Source: Chlorobiota bacterium (lineage in GTDB: Bacteria > Bacteroidota > Bacteroidia > Bacteroidales > JAADGE01). Taken from it: DNA of 45,304 bases. The stretch lies in the NCBI GenBank assembly GCA_013152535.1, contig JAADGE010000083.1, positions 1-45,304 of the forward strand, given 5' to 3'. Below are positions 5,505-45,304 of this stretch, piece after piece. Under the pieces are notes generated by a model. The model was not told the DNA's origin, searched no databases, and saw only the letters and a list, made by a program, of their open reading frames with translations. Made by a program: the position numbers and the translations under genes. Each line of letters begins with the position of its first letter. Position 1 is the first letter of the stretch.

Positions 5505-8500
5505 TTAAAAAAAAGCACGAATACTCATTCCGCCGGTATGAATAATTTTACCGGTATCAGATTTTCTGCCGGAATAATTTAATTCGAGTTGAAGATATTT
5601 CGTAAGTTTTTTATACCATAAAACAGACCACAAAAAGTTTTTGCCCGGCAGTAAACCTTCAAGTATTTCATAAGAAACAGCTGTATTCGTTTTTCCGATA
5701 TAATTGATTTTTACAAAATCGAAATTTACTTGAAAACTACCTTTATTAACACTTGAAAAGCGATATTCACCACCGGCGGTATATGAAATTAATTTTTCTT
5801 CCCCTATTAAATTATTTTTCTTTTTAAAAATAATATTGCTTTTAATATTGCTTTTTTTATCAATTTTGAAGTTTACGGAAGTATTATTATCAATATAATT
5901 TACAGAGAAATTATTACCTGAAAAATATTCCGATTCATATTTTTTATTTCCCGATTTAAAAATATTCGCAATTATAAAACTTTTTATCGTTTTATTAAAT
6001 TCAACAGAATGAAATATGTTTTTTCTTATATCAATTCCGTTTATCAGTAAATTTTTTGTTCCTGAATTAATAAAAGTATAGGCAATTTGCATTTGATATT
6101 TTGACAGATTAAAAGCAAATCTGTTTTTTAAAGATTTATTTTGTGTAATCAGTGTCGAATCCGGTATATTAAAGTTAAAATAATTTGCACCGCTGTTAAT
6201 TTTACGATTTATTTTATACGTAAAACGATTTGAAAGCAACGATATGAATTTTTTCAATCCTTTTTCGGAAGACCATATGCGATTCGGTAATAAATTAAAA
6301 ACCTCAAAAACCGATTGATTGTAAACCGTTCGATATTCCGATGAGGGTAAAGCAATACGAATATAATTTGCTTCGTCTGAGAAATTTGCTTTTACAAATT
6401 CGTTTAACTCTTTAATTTTATCATTATTAAAATCTTTCCATGCAAAAATGCCTTGCCCGCTTTGAACTTCCAAATATGAAAATTCTTTAACAGCCTCATT
6501 TCCGCTTGTATGCTCTACAAAACTCGAACTTGAGACAGTACCTTTAAAAAAATTAAAGGAGTAATTAAACTTTCCTGAAAGAGTATTTTCAGCCGGTGTA
6601 TTCGTTAAAATACTGTCTTTTACATATAATTTTCTGAAATTTATTACGGTATTAAATTTTTGATGTCTTAATTTAAGCAATCCGGCAACAAATCTTAAAT
6701 TATGAGCTGTTGAAGCATACGCAATATGATTTTTAAAAGGTAAAAAATCTTCTCTGTTCACATAACTTACAGAAAATAAGTGCTTTGAATTCTCCGGAGT
6801 TTTTAAATAAACTTCAAATTCATTAAACCTGAAAGAGTTGACAGATAATATATTATCATTAATATTAGTAAAAATATTTTTTTCTCCGGAATTTATAATT
6901 CCTGTTTTAAAATTAGAAAATCGTCCTTCAATTTGTCCTTTATATCTTATAAATTCTGTTTTATTTACTGTATCCTTTGTTGTTAATCTGTTTGCATTTA
7001 AGTTAATTAATAACTTCTTTTTATCAATAATTACAAACAAATCATTTTTATATCCCGAATAAAAATTATTTCGTAATAATAAGTCAGAACTCAATCCGAA
7101 TTTTCCGAAATTATGATTAAAATAAGTAAAATTCACATCGGCAGAATGTTCGTCAAATGAACTTGTGCCGGGAAGCAAATTCCAATCTCGTTGAAATTCC
7201 GGTGATTTATAAGGTTCAAAAGCATCAAAATGTTTATTTGTAAATTGATAGTTTGTGTTTATTGTTAAATAGCTGTCCGATGTATCTTTTTTCAGAAAAT
7301 TTTTGGTACCGCCGCCCCTGAACGCATACCCGATGTTATCATTATCATTAATATCGGAAAACGTGTTCAAATCGTTATTTGTTAAAGCTGTTTCAAAATA
7401 ATAGCTTGTTGATTTGTTAAGCTTTCCGGATGCTCCGGCATTTATCATTTGTTTTTTTTTCGGGCTGATAAGTAATTTTATCGGTTCATAATCGCCTTGA
7501 AGAATTCCGTTTATAGGTTCAATCCATTGAAAAACTTTACCGTTTGCCCCGTTCTGAATACGCCGGTAATTGCCTTTATGTTCTCCCGTATAAGAAAAAT
7601 TTACCCTGTATTTTGCATTGTCGGGATTTGTCGAATAAATATAAACATCTTGATATACAATGCTTTGTATAACTGTATCAGTTTTTCTGTAAAGCACTTC
7701 ATTATTATTAAAAGTGTCGGTATAAACAACATTGCTGACAAAAGCATCTTTAATATCATCTCCGATATTATGAAACATTAATTTTTGCTCATCGCTCAAA
7801 TTTTGTTGTAAGCTGTTATTTTTGGCATCTTGTTCGGAAATCAGATTTAAAAAAAAGGTTGTTTTTGCAGTTTTTATTGAAATTTGGCTGCCTGCCGTAA
7901 AGCGTGCATAATTCATTTCCGAATATTCAAATTCAGCAATTATTCGGCTGTCTTTTGTAATAATACGTTTTGAAGTGAAACTTAATTCGCCTGAATTGTA
8001 ATTTATTACATAATCATTTTCATTCCCTCGGATTAGTATTTTTCCGTCAAGATAAATTTTTTCACTCCCGGATAAAATAATGATATAAAGTTCGCCGTTT
8101 TTCCCGGTCAACCGATAAGGTCCTTGATTTCCTTCCGTTCCGTTAAAAATCATTTTGTTATAACTCCCTTTGGAAACGGCAGCATTAATTTGTGTTTGTA
8201 TTTTATAATTTTTAACTGTATTAAAAGAAGTCATAAAATTTGCTCCTTTTACTTTTTTATCAAATTTCATAAAATACCCTTCTTTCGGTTTTATATTCAA
8301 ATCACCGACTTCCAGTAGGCTTTTTTTAGAAATAAGACGAATAAAAACATTATCGAATTCTCTTAAATTTTGTGAACTTCCGTCAGCTTGTATCGGAATG
8401 TTACTATCGGTAATGTTAGCCTGAATTTCAATATCCGGGCTTATTTTTCCTGATAATTGTAAATTAAAATCAGAGTTTAAAGCTGCATTTTGGTTATTTC

Positions 8501-8945
8501 CGATTGTAATTCCTCTCGAAATGCTGCCGGATTTCTTTAATCCTGAAAATGCTTTTAAATTTGGAGTATTATCAGAACCGTAATTTGAAATATATCGCCT
8601 TTGTATTGTGCTGTCGTTCAGTAATAATTGCTTATGAGAATAAGGTTCTGAAAAGTTTAACGGGAAAGTTCGGTATTTTATTTTTAATTTTTTTTGTTTA
8701 TACTTTTCAAATTCCTCCGAATTAAAAATCAATAGTGCTTTTGCATAATTTAATTTATATTTATCCGGAGAAATAAGTTGATTATTTAAAGAAATACTGA
8801 AACTTTCGGGGACAATACTTAGGGTATCAAAATAAATACTGTCGTTTGTAATAATAATATCTTTTTCAAAAAAATTGTTCAAGCTTTGTCCGAAAACGGC
8901 AAAATTTGACAGAATAAAAGATATGGTAAGTATAAAATTTTTCAA
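5505..8945 (-). CDS. Very large predicted outer-membrane beta-barrel protein
   Basis: This 1146-residue protein starts with a signal peptide that ends near VFGQS (about residue 20). The N-terminal third has a block GSISRGITIGNNQNAALNS followed by NLQLSGKISPDIEIQANITD and later an EVGDLNIKP/GYFMKF segment, a pattern I associate with large conserved Bacteroidetes envelope proteins without a named function. The last two thirds alternate short amphipathic strands rich in N, S, Y, F and K. The protein ends in an aromatic residue (SIRAFF), as outer-membrane barrels do. It stands alone on the minus strand with its own terminator. No specific function can be assigned. Confidence 0.75.
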   Translation of the reverse strand: MKNFILTISFILSNFAVFGQSLNNFFEKDIIITNDSIYFDTLSIVPESFSISLNNQLISPDKYKLNYAKALLIFNSEEFEKYKQKKLKIKYRTFPLNFSEPYSHKQLLLNDSTIQRRYISNYGSDNTPNLKAFSGLKKSGSISRGITIGNNQNAALNSDFNLQLSGKISPDIEIQANITDSNIPIQADGSSQNLREFDNVFIRLISKKSLLEVGDLNIKPKEGYFMKFDKKVKGANFMTSFNTVKNYKIQTQINAAVSKGSYNKMIFNGTEGNQGPYRLTGKNGELYIIILSGSEKIYLDGKILIRGNENDYVINYNSGELSFTSKRIITKDSRIIAEFEYSEMNYARFTAGSQISIKTAKTTFFLNLISEQDAKNNSLQQNLSDEQKLMFHNIGDDIKDAFVSNVVYTDTFNNNEVLYRKTDTVIQSIVYQDVYIYSTNPDNAKYRVNFSYTGEHKGNYRRIQNGANGKVFQWIEPINGILQGDYEPIKLLISPKKKQMINAGASGKLNKSTSYYFETALTNNDLNTFSDINDNDNIGYAFRGGGTKNFLKKDTSDSYLTINTNYQFTNKHFDAFEPYKSPEFQRDWNLLPGTSSFDEHSADVNFTYFNHNFGKFGLSSDLLLRNNFYSGYKNDLFVIIDKKKLLINLNANRLTTKDTVNKTEFIRYKGQIEGRFSNFKTGIINSGEKNIFTNINDNILSVNSFRFNEFEVYLKTPENSKHLFSVSYVNREDFLPFKNHIAYASTAHNLRFVAGLLKLRHQKFNTVINFRKLYVKDSILTNTPAENTLSGKFNYSFNFFKGTVSSSSFVEHTSGNEAVKEFSYLEVQSGQGIFAWKDFNNDKIKELNEFVKANFSDEANYIRIALPSSEYRTVYNQSVFEVFNLLPNRIWSSEKGLKKFISLLSNRFTYKINRKINSGANYFNFNIPDSTLITQNKSLKNRFAFNLSKYQMQIAYTFINSGTKNLLINGIDIRKNIFHSVEFNKTIKSFIIANIFKSGNKKYESEYFSGNNFSVNYIDNNTSVNFKIDKKSNIKSNIIFKKKNNLIGEEKLISYTAGGEYRFSSVNKGSFQVNFDFVKINYIGKTNTAVSYEILEGLLPGKNFLWSVLWYKKLTKYLQLELNYSGRKSDTGKIIHTGGMSIRAFF

Positions 8946-39316: not shown

Positions 39317-39766
39317 TTAAATCGAAACTGCGTTATCAATATTTTTTGTTGTATTCATTAAATTTGCATTTTTAAAGTTGCGATTAATTCCATTAATAAG
39401 TTTATATGGTCTGTTAAAAGCTTCTTGTGAAATTTTAAAATGATTTGCTAAAATCCTAATCGTTTCTTTTGATAAACCTTTACGATAATTTAAAATCTTT
39501 GAAACAGTCCCTTTTGATAAACCTAAAATCACAGCTAAATCTTTTGATTTTAAATTATTTTCCCTCATTAATGATTTAATTAATTCAATTGGAGATAAAT
39601 CAGATAATGAAGTGTGGTCGCTATCCCATTTTTCAATTAACAATCCTAATAATTCAATTTCATCTTGTGAGTTTTCACCCCCATTATCAACAAGTCTTTC
39701 TAAAATATCACAATATTCAATATACTGTTTTTTTGTCTTTATTATTCCGTATTTTAAAGTTTCCAT
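39317..39766 (-). CDS. higA: HigA-type antitoxin
   Basis: This 149-residue protein has a helix-turn-helix domain in its C-terminal half (LIKSLMRENNLKSKDLAVILGLSKGTVSKILNYRKGLSKETIRILANHFKI). The N-terminal half is acidic and includes the SDLSPIELI region that usually contacts the toxin. It lies 14 bp downstream of the toxin gene, the toxin-first order typical of HigBA. It binds and represses its own promoter in this family. Confidence 0.9.
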   Translation of the reverse strand: METLKYGIIKTKKQYIEYCDILERLVDNGGENSQDEIELLGLLIEKWDSDHTSLSDLSPIELIKSLMRENNLKSKDLAVILGLSKGTVSKILNYRKGLSKETIRILANHFKISQEAFNRPYKLINGINRNFKNANLMNTTKNIDNAVSI

Positions 39767-39780
39767 TTTATGTTTTTTTA

Positions 39781-40113
39781 TTAAAAAGTATTTACAGCGT
39801 ATTGCTTATTTTCTTTACATAATTTTGTATATTCTGCATGGGTTCCAATCCATTTTATAAATAGGTGAACCTTATTAATACCAAAATGGTACTGACAAAT
39901 CATTCTATAATTATTCCCGCCAATATTAAATACAACACGATTTGAACTTTCTCCCAAGATGTCAGTACTGTTAAATGTTAAAATTATCTCATTAGGTTCT
40001 TTCCAATCTACTCTTTTTAATATTGAAAACCATATTTCAAAAGATGATTTACTTCTTGCATTTTTGATAATATAATCCTCAATTGTTTGCTTCTTTATTA
40101 AATGGACTTTCAT
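39781..40113 (-). CDS. higB: HigB-type toxin (mRNA interferase)
   Basis: This 110-residue basic protein matches the HigB_toxin family: MKVHLIKKQTIEDYI, ARSKSSFEIWFSILKRVDWKEPNEI, NRVVFNIGGNNYRMICQYHFGINKVHLFIKWIGTHAEYTKL. The RelE-like catalytic residues are the His and Lys/Arg in the C-terminal strands. It cleaves mRNA, usually on the ribosome, until neutralised by HigA. It is the first gene of the pair. Confidence 0.93.
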   Translation of the reverse strand: MKVHLIKKQTIEDYIIKNARSKSSFEIWFSILKRVDWKEPNEIILTFNSTDILGESSNRVVFNIGGNNYRMICQYHFGINKVHLFIKWIGTHAEYTKLCKENKQYAVNTF

Positions 40114-40367: not shown

Positions 40368-41096
40368 ATGAATAATTCGTACTTTAGAGAAATTTTAAAT
40401 TCGTTTAATATGAAAGGTCTTGCTTGTCTTCAAAAAGAAGAATTTTTAACTGTTTGCGATAAATGTAAAAAGGGATTGGTTTTGCGAAGTGAAAGTCCGT
40501 ACGGTGCATATTATTCCGAACATCCGGAAGTGCAAAAAACTCCCGATGTTCTTTATATTGCGGTTAAATCGTTTAATGAATGTATGGAAACAAAGGTTAT
40601 TCGATTGAGGCAGGAACTTAAAAAAGATGATGCAGAATTAAAAATGAATTATGCACATATAACATTATTTAATAAGGTTATTCCGGTTGTTGCATTTCAT
40701 GCAAGTCATATTTCTGAAGGTGATTTAATAATTGAAAAATTAATTAAAACAGATATAAAGATTTTAAAAAAACAGAATATTAATCCTTATGTCAGCCTTG
40801 TTCAAATCAGAAAATTTGTTGATTTAAATGAAATTAAAGAAGGTGTTTTTAAATCGCATGAAAAATTTCATTATTACCTTTCCGTACCGGATAAAATTGA
40901 ATGGGAAGAATTTCGCAAATGTGTAAATACTTGCAGAAATTCTCATAACTTTCCTCATTTCGATGCTGCCCAACTATCTCTTTTTCAGTATGATAATATT
41001 GAAGAATTCGTCAGGATTTATTCTCAAACAGCAACTGAAAATGATTTAATAAAAATGAAAGAAGAACTGAATAAAATATATTTAAAATATGTATAA
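40368..41096 (+). CDS. Unrecognised 242-residue protein
   Basis: I do not recognise a family. It has no signal peptide or membrane segment. Three cysteines lie near the start (C20, C30, C33; the last two form CDKC), suggesting a possible metal or redox site. The rest is mixed alpha/beta with a charged middle (METKVIRLRQELKKDDAELK) and a helical acidic end. Codon use matches its neighbours. It is monocistronic with a bidirectional terminator and has no obvious partner. It precedes the octaheme/cytochrome operon in convergent orientation. Confidence 0.7.
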   Translation: MNNSYFREILNSFNMKGLACLQKEEFLTVCDKCKKGLVLRSESPYGAYYSEHPEVQKTPDVLYIAVKSFNECMETKVIRLRQELKKDDAELKMNYAHITLFNKVIPVVAFHASHISEGDLIIEKLIKTDIKILKKQNINPYVSLVQIRKFVDLNEIKEGVFKSHEKFHYYLSVPDKIEWEEFRKCVNTCRNSHNFPHFDAAQLSLFQYDNIEEFVRIYSQTATENDLIKMKEELNKIYLKYV

Positions 41097-41149: not shown

Positions 41150-42472
41150 TTACTTTTCTTCAGGTAAATTTAAAATAAATCCCTCCATCCCGATTATTTT
41201 ATCTTGTTTATAAACCGGATTTGCAGATAAAAGATGTTTTCCTTTAGTTCCGTCTTTGCATTTTCTTGTTGCAATAATGCTTGAAATTGTTTCTCCGTTT
41301 ACGGTAACTCGTTTAAAAATATCATCCAAATTTTTCAAATCTTCTTCACATCGACTAAATGAATAATGTTTTCCTATAACGTCTTTCTTATCTTCGTATT
41401 TGTATAATTCTAACCATGCTTTATTAACATCCTCAAAATATCCGTCAGAATTTAACCTGTAATACCCTGCCCTGCTGTTTCTTACAGCATCATACATGTG
41501 TTGAGAATAATCATCCGATTCATTAATATCCAAAACAAAACCTTCTAATCCGGTAATTTCTCCGCCTTCAGTAATCGGATTTGCTGATAAAATATGCTTA
41601 CCCGAACTTCCGTCTTTGTTTTTTCGAATTGCAGGGATTCCTATAATTTTATTACCTTTCAGAACATTTGCAACAAGCTCGTCAAGCCTATTCATATATT
41701 TTTCTTCACGAACAATAGAATAATGTTTACCGATGACCTCGTCTTTATTTTTATAACCGAACATTTTAAGCCAAGCAGCATTAACATCCGTAAAAATACC
41801 GTTTTTGTCCAATCTGTAATAACCGGCAACACTTTTTTCAACAGCATCTTTCATATGTTTAATATGTTCTTCTTTTTCATCTACATCTACAACTTCCCAA
41901 CCTGTCAACATAGCCTTTATGCTTGTAAAAACAGTTTCTCCGGTTGTTGTCAGATAAACATGTGCTATAACAAAAAGAATTAAAGTAAAGGCACCGATTG
42001 TATGAATAACGGCGATTGTTCCCATACTTGAATGTATCGGATTATTAGGATAAATATAATACATATATATAAAACCTGAGAGCACTTGTACGGGAATAAC
42101 CAATAATTTTAAACCCAAATAAATTAATCGTTGAAGAGGATTTAATTTATTATATCTGGTTTTTTTTGTCGGATGCGGAGCACCTTTAAAAATACCCGAA
42201 ATATAGTATCTGAATTGTTCCTTTACAAATTTTGATGTCGGAATATATTGCTTCCATTCTCCTGTTACAAAATGCCAGAAAATTGCAAATATTATCAGAA
42301 CTAAAAATGCCCATGCAGCCATATTATGCCATTTAACGGCATTTTGAAAACCCATTAATTTATATGAACTGTGGATTTCGAAGCCGGTCAGCATTAAGAA
42401 AAAAATTAATAATGCTTGAGACCAATGCCAAAACCTTTCAAAACTTCGGTATATATATGTTTGTTTTTTCAC
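41150..42472 (-). CDS. Membrane b-type cytochrome fused to two PAS domains
   Basis: This protein has 440 residues. Residues 1 to about 190 are a b-type cytochrome domain like the Ni/Fe-hydrogenase or thiosulfate-reductase b subunit. It has four to five helices; candidate haem-ligand histidines are H16 (FWHWSQ), H49 (WHNMAAW), H67 (FWHFVTGEW), H157 (IHTIGAF) and H171 (HVYLTTTGET). Two PAS domains follow (about 203-318 and 322-437), each starting AGYYRL and containing DVN-AWL and GKHYS, so they arose by internal duplication. No kinase, GGDEF or DNA-binding output follows. It is cotranscribed with the octaheme gene, 28 bp upstream. Proposed role: quinone-side electron transfer with self-sensing. 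Confidence 0.85.
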   Translation of the reverse strand: MKKQTYIYRSFERFWHWSQALLIFFLMLTGFEIHSSYKLMGFQNAVKWHNMAAWAFLVLIIFAIFWHFVTGEWKQYIPTSKFVKEQFRYYISGIFKGAPHPTKKTRYNKLNPLQRLIYLGLKLLVIPVQVLSGFIYMYYIYPNNPIHSSMGTIAVIHTIGAFTLILFVIAHVYLTTTGETVFTSIKAMLTGWEVVDVDEKEEHIKHMKDAVEKSVAGYYRLDKNGIFTDVNAAWLKMFGYKNKDEVIGKHYSIVREEKYMNRLDELVANVLKGNKIIGIPAIRKNKDGSSGKHILSANPITEGGEITGLEGFVLDINESDDYSQHMYDAVRNSRAGYYRLNSDGYFEDVNKAWLELYKYEDKKDVIGKHYSFSRCEEDLKNLDDIFKRVTVNGETISSIIATRKCKDGTKGKHLLSANPVYKQDKIIGMEGFILNLPEEK

Positions 42473-42500
42473 GATATTAATATTTAGAATAAATAAATTA

Positions 42501-44231
42501 TTAATGTGTTGTTTTCTTTCTGTTTATAATACGTATTATTGCATGTATAAGTACAGCAATAAGTGCAAGAATAATTAGGATTACACCTCCTTTATCAACG
42601 ATAACTGATCGGTCTCTGCCGGGCAGATAAAAGCCGGTAAGTGCTGCTAATCTGCTGTTATGGGAGTGGCATTCTTCACAAGTTAAACTTTTTTCTTTCG
42701 GTGAAACCATATGATTTATCGGCCAAATACTCTCTGTTTCTATAAAAGAATATTTACCGCTGTAGGGCAAATTTAAATATTTCATACCTTCACTTGCAGA
42801 TGCTTGCCAATCAAAATCTACCCAATAAGCACCGCTTCCTTTAATTTTTCCTGCCAATTTAGGTTGAATTAAATTCATATTTCCTTTGTCATAAATTTGT
42901 TTTCCTCTCATTATTTTAACAGGAATTATTTTTGAAGGATGTTTCTTATCCGAAGGATACCTATTGTCTTTATATGAGCCGAACGGTTTATTTAATATTA
43001 AAGGATGAATAGTATCTGTAATTTTATCAGAAATAAATTGATGGTCAAAATATCCGTTAGACCAAATATACTCCGGTTTCAAATTATTTGCAAATACGGC
43101 AGTCCCGTGTTTACCGTTGTATTCTAACTTAACATTTTCAAAATTATCTCGTGATTTTAAATTAGGTAAATCTTCGGCTAAAATATAATCGCCGCTTTTG
43201 CATATTGTATCATCAGCAGTTATTTCTTTTTCATACTGCAAAGTTTTTCCGTTTTTTAATTTTCCGGCTGACGACCAATCCCAATATATTTTTGTCGGAT
43301 TTACTTTAGCATAAGTCGGAATATGACAAGTTTGACAGGCAACTTGCCTGAAGTGATTATTCAATAATTTGTCCGTATGAGGATGATCCGTATGGCAATC
43401 AACACAAGAAATACCGTTTTTAGGAGATGATGAAACCATTGCCAATTCTCCTTTTATGTTATGATTTGTTGTTCGGTGACACTTTTGACAACTCATATTG
43501 TTATCTTTTGCGTCTTTCGATGCCATATGAACATCAATATCACGAGTACATTTATTTAAAGCCATTTCCAAATCACCATGTTTTACATTATTTCCGCCGC
43601 CGCCAACACCATGACATGATAAACAATTATTACGTTTCGGAAATCCGACATGTTGAGCAACTGCTGATAAATTAACTCCGGGAGACGGATTTCCTGCACC
43701 GGGTAAATTAGGTCCTGCACAAGGATTTGACTTTTTATATGTTCCCGTATTATCATGGCAAATTAAACAGTCTTCATTATCCTGATTTGTAAAATCAAAA
43801 TTTTTATTTCCGTAACCATAGCCGGCATGACACATTGAACATAATTGTTCATTTGAATTTATTCCGATACAAAAATTATTTAAAATATTTCTTTTCCCCA
43901 TTTCAAAATTACCTCTTCCGGGAATTGAATCTTTTTTTAACCATTGGAAATGTTCTGTATGCATAAACTCTTTTCCTCTGTTATTATGACAAGAAAGACA
44001 CGTTTCTGTAACTTCTTGAGGACTTTTAAAATCCTTTTGCAGTTCCTTAAATTTACTGTGATCTGCTCCTGTCAAAGTATCTGTATTGTAATTTTGAACC
44101 ATAATTTTTGCCTGATAAGGATCCTTTTTATAATAAACATTATATATCAATGCAAATAACCATGGCAACATAATAAATATAAATGTTGCTAATAACTTAT
44201 AAAAATCATATTTTGATTTCATATATTTCAT
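42501..44231 (-). CDS. Octaheme c-type cytochrome, tetrathionate-reductase (OTR) family
   Basis: Eight CXXCH haem motifs are present (CLSCH, CSMCH, CLICH, CLSCH, CQKCH, CVDCH, CQTCH, CEECH). The NNFCIGINSNEQLCSMCHAGYG, NEDCLICHDNTGTYKK and NNVKHGDLEMAL segments match the octaheme tetrathionate-reductase family. There is an N-terminal helix (FYKLLATFIFIMLPWLFALIYN) and a C-terminal one, so it is membrane-anchored with a periplasmic domain. The ATG at 44231 (MKYMKSKY) is preferred over the one at 44267 because the latter overlaps the -7 box. Relatives reduce tetrathionate, nitrite or hydroxylamine in vitro; the substrate here is not shown. Confidence 0.9.
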   Translation of the reverse strand: MKYMKSKYDFYKLLATFIFIMLPWLFALIYNVYYKKDPYQAKIMVQNYNTDTLTGADHSKFKELQKDFKSPQEVTETCLSCHNNRGKEFMHTEHFQWLKKDSIPGRGNFEMGKRNILNNFCIGINSNEQLCSMCHAGYGYGNKNFDFTNQDNEDCLICHDNTGTYKKSNPCAGPNLPGAGNPSPGVNLSAVAQHVGFPKRNNCLSCHGVGGGGNNVKHGDLEMALNKCTRDIDVHMASKDAKDNNMSCQKCHRTTNHNIKGELAMVSSSPKNGISCVDCHTDHPHTDKLLNNHFRQVACQTCHIPTYAKVNPTKIYWDWSSAGKLKNGKTLQYEKEITADDTICKSGDYILAEDLPNLKSRDNFENVKLEYNGKHGTAVFANNLKPEYIWSNGYFDHQFISDKITDTIHPLILNKPFGSYKDNRYPSDKKHPSKIIPVKIMRGKQIYDKGNMNLIQPKLAGKIKGSGAYWVDFDWQASASEGMKYLNLPYSGKYSFIETESIWPINHMVSPKEKSLTCEECHSHNSRLAALTGFYLPGRDRSVIVDKGGVILIILALIAVLIHAIIRIINRKKTTH

Positions 44232-44264
44232 CTGTTCGTTATTTAAAATTAGTGAAATTCTAAA

Positions 44265-44282
44265 CAAAAGTAGATATATATC
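44265..44282 (-). promoter_or_regulatory. Octaheme promoter -7 box with adjacent palindrome
   Basis: TACTTTTG on the minus strand (complement of 44265-44272) fits the -7 consensus. The palindrome GATATATATC at 44273-44282 lies directly upstream, in the -33/-7 spacer. The same 10-bp palindrome occurs at 44479-44488 near the divergent molybdoenzyme start. Confidence 0.5.
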
Positions 44283-44475
44283 TTCTTAAATATTCTTGGC
44301 ATAGCTGTTTTGCAACACATTAATCATTTTATAATAATTCTAAATAACACTCTAACTATCTGGATATAAAAGAAATATAGAGGTCGTATTTTTAACAACA
44401 TTTTATTGTTTGAGATTATCCATCCCAAAACTCTGTGTTTTATTATAAATATATTTAATTTTGATTAAAATTTAA

Positions 44476-44491
44476 TGTGATATATATCATA
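44476..44491. promoter_or_regulatory. Crp/Fnr-like site next to the molybdoenzyme start
   Basis: TGTGATATATATCATA is a near-palindrome (TGTGA-N6-TCATA, two mismatches) and contains GATATATATC. It ends 16 bp before the ATG at 44508. That is too close for ordinary activation of the plus-strand gene; it may repress it, or act on the divergent octaheme operon from about 200 bp. Confidence 0.5.
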
Positions 44492-44507
44492 TTTAAAAGT
44501 GATTAAA

Positions 44508-45304
44508 ATGAAAACAACAAGACGTGATTTTATTAAGATTACTTCGATGGGAGCCGGAGGACTTGCAATTGCCACAACACCCTTATTAAATTGGATACCC
44601 GGTTTTTTAAAAGATGACAGTGAAATTCCTGATGATGCAAAATTAAAGAGAACAGCAACTTATTGCGAAGTTTGCTTTTGGAAATGTGCAGCTTGGACCT
44701 ATACCGATAAAAAAGGTAAGATTATTAAACTTATCGGGAATAAAGACGATCAACAAAGTAACGGTCGTTTGTGTCCCAGAGGTACCGGCGGTCTCGGAAT
44801 GTATTATGATAATGACCGTTTGAAAAAACCTTTAATAAGGCGTAAAGGAAAGAGAGGCGAAACAGATTATTTTGAGGAAGCATCATGGGATGAAGCTCTA
44901 GATTTAATTGCTGATAACATGCAAAGAATAAAAGAAAAATACGGACCGGAATGTGTAGCTTTATTTTCACACGGTTCCGGAACATCTCATTTTGCACATA
45001 TGTTAAAAGCATTCGGGTCAACAAATATTGCAGCTCCGTCTTATGCACAATGTCGCGGTCCTCGCGAAGTCGGTTTCGATGCAACATTCGGCGAAAGTGT
45101 CGGCTCACCGGAACCTTTGGATATAAGAAATACAAAATGTATGGTTCTTATCGGTTCGCATATTGGTGAGAATATGCACAACGGACAAGTTCAGGAAATG
45201 TCGCAAGCAATTGAAAACGGAGCAACAATTATTACGGTCGATCCCAGATTTTCTACGGCTGCAAGTAAATCTAAAATTTGGTTGCCGATAAAACCGGCAA
45301 CAGA
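44508..45304 (+). CDS. Molybdopterin oxidoreductase catalytic subunit (PsrA/PhsA/TtrA-like), 5' part
   Basis: The gene runs off the window; 265 codons are seen. A Tat signal with TTRRDFIKITSMGAGG starts the protein, so it is exported folded. The 4Fe-4S cluster ligands are C53, C56, C60 and C89 (YCEVCFWKCAAW, RLCPRG). The molybdenum ligand is probably C182 in SYAQCRGPREVGF, the cysteine type found in polysulfide, thiosulfate and tetrathionate reductases. The Rossmann-like MVLIGSHIGENMH follows. It is divergent from the octaheme-cytochrome operon and likely works with it. Substrate cannot be assigned. Confidence 0.9.
   Translation, partial: MKTTRRDFIKITSMGAGGLAIATTPLLNWIPGFLKDDSEIPDDAKLKRTATYCEVCFWKCAAWTYTDKKGKIIKLIGNKDDQQSNGRLCPRGTGGLGMYYDNDRLKKPLIRRKGKRGETDYFEEASWDEALDLIADNMQRIKEKYGPECVALFSHGSGTSHFAHMLKAFGSTNIAAPSYAQCRGPREVGFDATFGESVGSPEPLDIRNTKCMVLIGSHIGENMHNGQVQEMSQAIENGATIITVDPRFSTAASKSKIWLPIKPAT

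Follow-up and report, generated by a model that had tools for sequence, protein, structure and literature searches.

A cytochrome b with PAS domains beside an octahaem cytochrome and a psr operon with cysteine-tailed rhodaneses: a probable sulfur-compound respiration island in a Chlorobiota bacterium

Which respiratory system is encoded where a gene for an OTR-family octahaem cytochrome c, a gene for a cytochrome b with a C-terminal pair of PAS domains and a divergent gene for a molybdoenzyme lie side by side? The three genes are found on contig JAADGE010000083.1 (45,304 nt) of a Chlorobiota bacterium (assembly GCA_013152535.1), whose genome is 98% complete. The window analysed here is this entire contig, G000:C58 in our codes, in which G, C and L denote genomes, contigs and loci. 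A sequence-only reading had proposed that the three proteins could form one self-regulated system for the respiration of sulfur or nitrogen oxyanions. Its coordinates for the genes were right, with the refinement that the molybdoenzyme starts at an ATG at 44508 and that the window stops where the contig stops. The best explanation of the whole is in our judgement that the locus is one half of an island for respiration of sulfur compounds, which we consider probable; the other half is found on contig C49 of the same genome.

The OTR gene (42501..44267, minus strand) codes for a protein of 588 amino acids with eight CXXCH motifs (residues 90, 143, 167, 215, 260, 288, 311 and 530) and with two hydrophobic stretches, one N-terminal and one C-terminal. 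It scores 499.4 bits against NCBIfam TIGR04315, which has a curated cut-off of 375, and the earlier assignment to the OTR family stands. The Shewanella oneidensis OTR (1SP3) aligns to it with an E value of 1.4e-98. Lys229, in the motif VKHGD, is invariant in all 12 aligned OTRs and is aligned with Lys153 of 1SP3, which we take to be the axial ligand of the active-site haem. The two proteins share the family, the eight haem sites and a lysine at this place; the system described here differs from that of 1SP3 in the hydrophobic stretch at both ends, in its PAS-tailed cytochrome b partner and in its carrier-like rhodaneses.

The cytochrome b gene (41150..42472, minus strand; 440 amino acids) consists of a cytochrome part (residues 1-195, 41888..42472), PAS domain 1 (residues 205-318, 41519..41860) and PAS domain 2 (residues 324-436, 41165..41503), all on the minus strand. 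Pfam Ni_hydr_CYTB (PF01292) matches residues 8-191 with 93.3 bits against a cut-off of 30.1 and is followed by PAS; NCBIfam finds two PAS stretches. The equivalog for thiosulfate reductase cytochrome B, PRK15006, gives 107.9 bits, below its cut-off of 204. The AlphaFold2 model (mean predicted local distance difference test score, pLDDT, 72.7; predicted template modelling score 0.49) contains four long helices at residues 10-34, 42-69, 112-139 and 151-175, and the PAS regions 211-320 and 331-430 are modelled with pLDDT blocks of 74-91. The capacity to bind haem is predicted: among 22 aligned fused proteins His16, 34, 49, 67, 100, 157 and 171 are invariant, and of these His16, 49, 157 and 171 are candidates for the b-haem ligands of a four-helix cytochrome. 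Cytochromes b of the Ni_hydr_CYTB type exchange electrons with quinones. Helices 2 and 3 are joined by a loop with nine Lys/Arg and two Asp/Glu, compared to one Lys/Arg in the loop between helices 1 and 2 and none between helices 3 and 4. Because of this positive loop and the four helices both ends of the protein are predicted to be cytoplasmic, and the PAS domains are most likely on the cytoplasmic side of the membrane.

The two PAS domains are 51% identical to each other and no output domain is found among the Pfam and NCBIfam matches of the protein, as had been read from the sequence at the outset. When PAS 2 is used as a query in the genome, PAS 1 is the sole match at E<=1e-5, so we rejected a recent origin of the PAS pair by borrowing within the genome. 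A fold comparison of the PAS part returns general PAS structures with Z up to 17.1, among many others MmoS and Aer, which like NifL belong to the FAD-type redox PAS proteins; such matches do not name a cofactor, since any PAS domain would match, and the membrane part is barely covered. A search of the PDB with a profile of the fused protein gave nothing at E<=0.001. The nearest solved PAS domain by sequence is that of FixL (E 5.9e-5). It had been suggested to look for haem or flavin pockets. In two FixL alignments, which covered PAS 1 only, Leu263, invariant in the 22 fused proteins, stands at the place of the haem His of FixL, which we take to be the His preceding Asp in the FixL stretch; a FixL-type haem in PAS 1 was rejected on this ground. 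LOV domains use a photoactive Cys. PAS 1 has none, and the only cysteines, Cys375 and Cys405, are both in PAS 2, Cys375 outside the conserved columns; a LOV flavin domain was rejected as well.

The molybdoenzyme gene is read in the opposite direction (44508..45304, plus strand) and is the 5' part of a psrA-like gene, the end of which is not reached at the right edge of the contig. Its product starts with MKTTRRDFIK, a Tat-like signal, and has 4Fe4S and molybdopterin domains, in agreement with the Tat-exported molybdoenzyme first described. The last 91 bases of the window (45214..45304) are an exact match to the end of contig C49, reversed. Across this overlap the gene is continued to 755 amino acids, and past it C49 (stretch L004) carries the remainder of psrA, psrB (177 amino acids), psrC (NrfD-like, 336 amino acids), two YeeE/YedE-type halves of 195 amino acids each and three rhodaneses with a GGC tail. 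The PsrB/C-like partner, for which an extension of the contig had been recommended, does follow the molybdoenzyme. The junction between C58 and C49 is supported because G397, a genome of the same genus, holds the whole array on a single contig (L049) in identical order and orientation, with protein identities of 89-100%; the L049 stretch clips the outermost rhodanese, the full frame of which is present on the same G397 contig. The PsrA orthologue of L049 (97% identical) aligns to the Thermus thermophilus Psr, 2vpw, over 741 residues with an E value of 1.3e-203, and Cys182 of the psrA product is aligned with Cys173 of 2vpw, which we take to be the Mo ligand. With the PhsA equivalog NF012032 the same orthologue reaches 491.6 bits, below the cut-off of 694. 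All parts of a PsrABC complex are present: the homologous A subunit and, next to it, the 4Fe4S B and the NrfD-like C subunits. Psr reduces polysulfide or thiosulfate, and YeeE imports thiosulfate.

Between sulfur and nitrogen, both of which had been considered, sulfur is favoured because the YeeE pair and the rhodaneses are nearby. A search of the window's genome found neither NrfA nor a member of the sulfite/nitrite reductase family PF01077 (NIR_SIR), a result more in keeping with sulfur than with NrfA-type ammonification; nitrite is still a possible substrate of OTR.

The rhodaneses carry an unusual end. All three rhodaneses of C49 (L004 9046-11519) terminate in EEEGGC, and GGC is the end of 28 of the 29 closed open reading frames (ORFs) which they match, L047 and L061 being one locus present twice. 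We collected 79 OTR loci from named genomes, the best 79 of at least 585 confirmed matches, which lean to close relatives; GGC is the end of 71 of their 2935 closed ORFs. Ten GGC proteins were scanned, eight of the 71 and two of L004. Nine match rhodanese and four of the nine also YeeE, the two of L004 match only Rhodanese in Pfam, and the Pfam SoxY family was not found in any of the ten at 0.01. As cassette rhodaneses we counted rhodanese ORFs that have an OTR, cytochrome b or psr gene no more than 5 kb away, one per identical last 90 residues. Among these 160, a Cys is present in the last six residues of 139, as GGC in 106, as GC followed by up to three residues in 28 and in another form in 5; the GC-type total is 134. 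By comparison, among 4469 closed ORFs other than rhodaneses there is no GGC end, and in the window's genome the tail is on 3/3 cassette rhodaneses and on 0/2 other rhodaneses. The tail Cys can be the only one left: 58 of 157 GC-tailed rhodaneses have no further Cys from the first rhodanese domain onward, and pseudo-rhodaneses in which the last residue is the sole Cys are among the proteins of C49 and many related loci. All 16 aligned RHO1 proteins keep the tail Cys, while no Cys column of their domain is invariant or nearly so. Because the N-termini, judged by eye, are membrane helices or lipobox-like starts, the rhodanese domain would be periplasmic. Chance or shared ancestry alone was considered as an explanation of the tail; kinship inflates the counts, but the tail is found on single, double, membrane-anchored and YeeE-fused rhodaneses and on pseudo-rhodaneses that lack the catalytic Cys. 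In SoxYZ the C-terminal GGCGG Cys of SoxY carries sulfur (PMC6067878; statements on published work here and below refer to parts of the cited papers). The proteins described here have the same Gly-flanked C-terminal Cys on what appears to be a flexible tail and would carry sulfur in a similar manner, with the difference that the arm sits on membrane-anchored proteins of the rhodanese fold. It can be added that locus L211 (G403:C32) has rhodanese tails DGCG and SGCGG, nearer still to that of SoxY, beside a weakly YeeE-like protein of 422 amino acids; no OTR or psr match is found there.

How common is the PAS-tailed cytochrome b? The sequence-only reading had suggested a search for this architecture beside OTR genes in other Bacteroidetes, and the architecture does recur in the phylum. 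A phylum search found the cytochrome in 53/395 genomes; among the matches listed only the window's own passes query residue 218. Among relatives 22/60 genomes matched, the window's genome included. Eight others have the full cytochrome b-PAS-PAS form (G397, G405, G412, G414, G410, G396, G409 and G424), contig ends truncate two, a single PAS domain is present in two, three have a close plain cytochrome and six have distant matches only (28-37% identity). A search of the order matched 83/393 genomes, and among the matches listed 20, the window included, reach at least query residue 316 as one unbroken match. The full-length form in eight other genomes, to which the order search adds more, disposes of the possibility that the fusion is an artefact of gene calling or assembly. 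OTR is present in 54/54 loci examined from the phylum and order searches, be the cytochrome fused or without PAS.

The cytochrome part was used for a tree. The number of PAS domains in 149 cytochrome b genes, which come from overlapping sets of loci, more than half of them found via OTR, is 0 in 80, 1 in 28, 2 in 37 and 3 in 4. OTR is in the locus for 148 of the 149; the exception, L053, is truncated within the cytochrome gene by the end of its contig. In the tree of 139 different rows, obtained by a short search, one branch with an SH-aLRT support of 96 splits 63 rows from 76. Of the 63 rows, 31 have two PAS domains, 26 have a single one and 4 have three; of the other two, one is a plain cytochrome and one is truncated at the end of its contig within a PAS domain, so at least a partial PAS is found in 62/63 cytochromes of the fused clade and in 0/76 outside it. 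The fewest changes between fused and plain on the tree are two, a count which cannot tell gain from loss. Repeated independent fusions are needless, as two changes suffice with one plain exception inside the fused clade. Most simply, the fusion would have arisen once and would have been followed by duplication and trimming, and by a loss in L099. This plain cytochrome b (L099 1620-2381) is a closed gene with no PAS in three reading frames, and it has likely lost its PAS part. The ratio of nonsynonymous to synonymous substitutions (dN/dS) in the PAS domains is 0.06-0.13 in six usable comparisons of the window with L049, L050, L053 and L058, a seventh (L050 PAS 2) being saturated; judged by these ratios the PAS domains are under purifying selection. 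Two loci hold two different cytochrome b-PAS genes each, with OTR close to each of them (L102 9483-10571 and 13432-14592; L103 3619-4719 and 6821-7945). Among cultured environmental strains, Marinifilum breve JC075 (locus L111) carries OTR, a cytochrome b with a single PAS domain and a GGC rhodanese, and Mariniphaga anaerophila (L127) carries the form without PAS. Plain OTR-cytochrome b pairs together with rhodaneses with a tail Cys are found in L130, L131, L132, L133, L147, L148 and L154, on contigs labelled Planctomycetales, Acidobacteriota, Holophagaceae, Fibrobacteria, LCP-89 and Chthonomonadia.

A possible mechanism for the island is as follows. The four-helix cytochrome b would oxidise menaquinol and pass the electrons outward to the membrane-anchored periplasmic OTR, which, to judge from its family and neighbours, would reduce a sulfur oxyanion or a sulfur-sulfur bond. 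The divergent operon would supply PsrABC, which would reduce polysulfide or sulfane sulfur, together with an importer of the split YeeE type and membrane-anchored rhodaneses in the periplasm whose glycine-flanked C-terminal Cys would most likely shuttle sulfur among OTR, Psr and YeeE, like the arm of SoxY. The cytoplasmic PAS pair most likely binds a ligand or a redox cofactor and adjusts quinol oxidation; such gating is our leading guess. A more specific formulation, which is tentative and which we would rather doubt than defend, is that OTR acts on a thiosulfonate or persulfide on the Cys arm of the GGC rhodaneses and not on free tetrathionate, that the swinging arm forms a relay between OTR, PsrABC and YeeE, and that PAS throttles cytochrome b in one clade. 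If true, the relay would be the analogue of SoxYZ in the reductive respiration of sulfur.

Several observations weigh against a sulfur island of this kind, and they are best considered together with the other explanations. The one distant cytochrome homologue examined (L064, 29% identity) has no OTR match in its 16 kb. The OTR-cytochrome b pair on one side and the psr operon on the other might be independent respiratory modules that have no more in common in this lineage than a divergent promoter region, a serious possibility although we give it less than an even chance. Operons with psrABC, YeeE and rhodanese are found without a cytochrome match in six relatives (G395, G398, G399, G402, G406 and G423; in G402 the operon is truncated by the end of its contig), and G410 and G424 carry OTR-cytochrome b and psr genes on separate contigs. 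Within the fetched stretches psrB/psrC are present in just 9/79 OTR loci, and there are OTR loci with YeeE and rhodanese and no psr genes (e.g. L061-L063). Since psr genes can occur apart from OTR, the two need not belong to one pathway. Against independence, six loci share the divergent arrangement (window/C49, L049, L050, L051, L052 and L058), and GC-tailed rhodaneses and YeeE halves are present in both modules. The earlier proposal that the genes form one system is only partly supported; OTR-cytochrome b and psr are best seen as two modules sharing carriers, linked often and not always. It is also conceivable, if unlikely, that OTR is no sulfur enzyme here and acts as a nitrite or hydroxylamine reductase or as a plain electron conduit. 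The S. oneidensis OTR is cited as reducing nitrite and hydroxylamine in vitro (PMC4911364; PMC7887784), and MmcA, a relative of OTR, acts as an electron conduit (PMC11024163). The sulfur genes surrounding OTR argue against this, as does the position of otr beside a soxY gene (SoxY-S3) in lucinid symbionts (PMC11237559). No NrfA or NIR_SIR was found in the genome, which points the same way, though OTR itself might be the nitrite reductase.

The proposed sulfur carriage also depends on what the tail and the PAS domains do. The GGC tail could be a signal for anchoring, sorting or metal binding, an explanation which its C-terminal place and the 127/157 GC-tailed proteins that terminate in Cys itself would suit, and which we hold to be quite improbable. 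The proteins already have an N-terminal membrane helix or lipobox (by eye), the tail is also found on YeeE-rhodanese fusions, no C-terminal hydrophobic stretch is present in the tails inspected, and the variants GGCE, GGCS, GGCA, GGCD, GGCG and SGCGG keep the Cys and give up its terminal place. It should be noted that 21/160 cassette rhodaneses have no tail Cys at all, and that two RHO3 relatives, one in the psr operon of L206 and one in L214, are tailless. The tail is present in 23 and absent in 27 of 50 rhodaneses without a cassette gene in the fetched stretch, many of these stretches being short, and longer ones show a psr or OTR cassette for L181, L186, L195 and L202. The rhodanese profile was grown from three tailed proteins of this genome and favours kin, and kinship inflates the counts. 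In the model of a RHO1 relative residues 184-217 have a pLDDT below 50 and residues 185-217 are without secondary structure, in a model of poor overall quality (mean pLDDT 59.9). With respect to the PAS domains, the stretch after helix 4 (two Lys/Arg, five Asp/Glu) is by itself no argument for the cytoplasmic side. Instead of gating the cytochrome, the PAS pair might be a sensor platform which reports the redox state of cytochrome b or of the quinones to a cytoplasmic partner, perhaps the uncharacterised protein of 242 amino acids encoded at 40368..41096 (plus strand), a reading which is possible although we would not expect it to be right. The absence of an output domain in the cytochrome b-PAS protein would suit it. 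Relatives of the 242-residue protein, which has no Pfam family over the cut-off, are present in 14/46 PAS-fused loci and in 0/47 PAS-less loci (Fisher p 1.6e-5, kinship ignored; the 46 contain at least two duplicate pairs, L050/L090 and L052/L107, and flank lengths differ, some being short). Besides the window, relatives are found in L049, L051, L053, L092-L094, L096, L097, L102, L104, L114, L117, L145 and L210. The position of the gene varies, upstream on the OTR strand in L092, L093, L094, L096, L097, L114, L117 and L145 and convergent downstream in the window and L049. Eleven sequences of the family have two invariant Cys (Cys20 and Cys72) and one invariant Lys (Lys67), besides Ser41 and Tyr218-Ser219. 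Against a role as PAS partner, a relative is absent from 32/46 fused loci as fetched, some with short flanks, one stands beside psrA in G406 (L210), a genome without a cytochrome match, and the protein has no known signalling domain; a Pfam search with five members of the family gave nothing above cut-off.

The divergent promoter region upstream of psrA contains an FNR/CRP-like palindrome, TGATATATATCA (44478..44489). A site of this type is in a similar place in 5/6 divergent loci (window, L049, L050, L051 and L058) and only elsewhere in L052. L206 and L210 also have it close to psrA; in L213 it lies at a distance from that gene, and L207 and L215 have none. The background is 50 sites per 503,514 bases, and the palindrome is a candidate only, to be taken as a lead. 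Other features of the window are a HigB-like toxin gene with a helix-turn-helix gene (39317-40113, minus strand), a HigBA-type pair, and an ORF of 1146 amino acids (5505-8945) with no Pfam match at 1e-5.

How does the island compare with known systems? Psr is known, as are OTR and the cytochrome b that accompanies it, a pair which occurs widely and has been described before. In Thermosulfurimonas dismutans OTR adjoins a cytochrome b (TDIS_1882/1883), which was proposed to be the membrane link (PMC4911364); this is the same gene pair as in the window, and PAS is not mentioned in the part of that paper considered here. The PsrABC and PhsABC complexes, with T. thermophilus Psr as the solved example, have a homologous A subunit which keeps the position of Cys173 and is followed by B and C. 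The operon described here adds a split YeeE and three rhodaneses. Desulfurivibrio dismutans has a psr operon with a secreted three-rhodanese protein, and sulfurtransferases were proposed to feed Psr or YeeE (PMC12142623); Psr and periplasmic sulfurtransferases are common to both operons, and neither a C-terminal Cys arm nor a link to OTR is mentioned in the corresponding part of that study. PmpA and PmpB are short YeeE proteins (PMC11582611) and are like the two half-size YeeE genes found side by side here, with the differences that the halves here are of 195 amino acids each and that other loci fuse YeeE to a GGC-tailed rhodanese. In the open-licence literature we found no description of the clade of PAS-tailed cytochromes b, nor of GGC-tailed rhodaneses as frequent companions of these genes.

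What the finding could mean concerns first of all the substrate of OTR. The family is widely annotated as tetrathionate reductase, the literature (in the parts considered here) names nitrite, hydroxylamine and tetrathionate, and the physiological substrate is uncertain. A conserved partner with a cysteine arm offers a concrete idea of how the substrate may be presented to OTR, one open to test in strains in culture, Marinifilum breve for example. The sulfur-handling tail suggests an unrecognised way of handing sulfur to enzymes, and the GGC rhodaneses can be used as an extra marker in genome surveys which count otr or psr. The PAS-tailed cytochrome b would attach a sensor directly to a carrier of respiratory electrons rather than to a kinase or a transcription factor, and a single clade with one to three PAS copies is a tractable test case for this.

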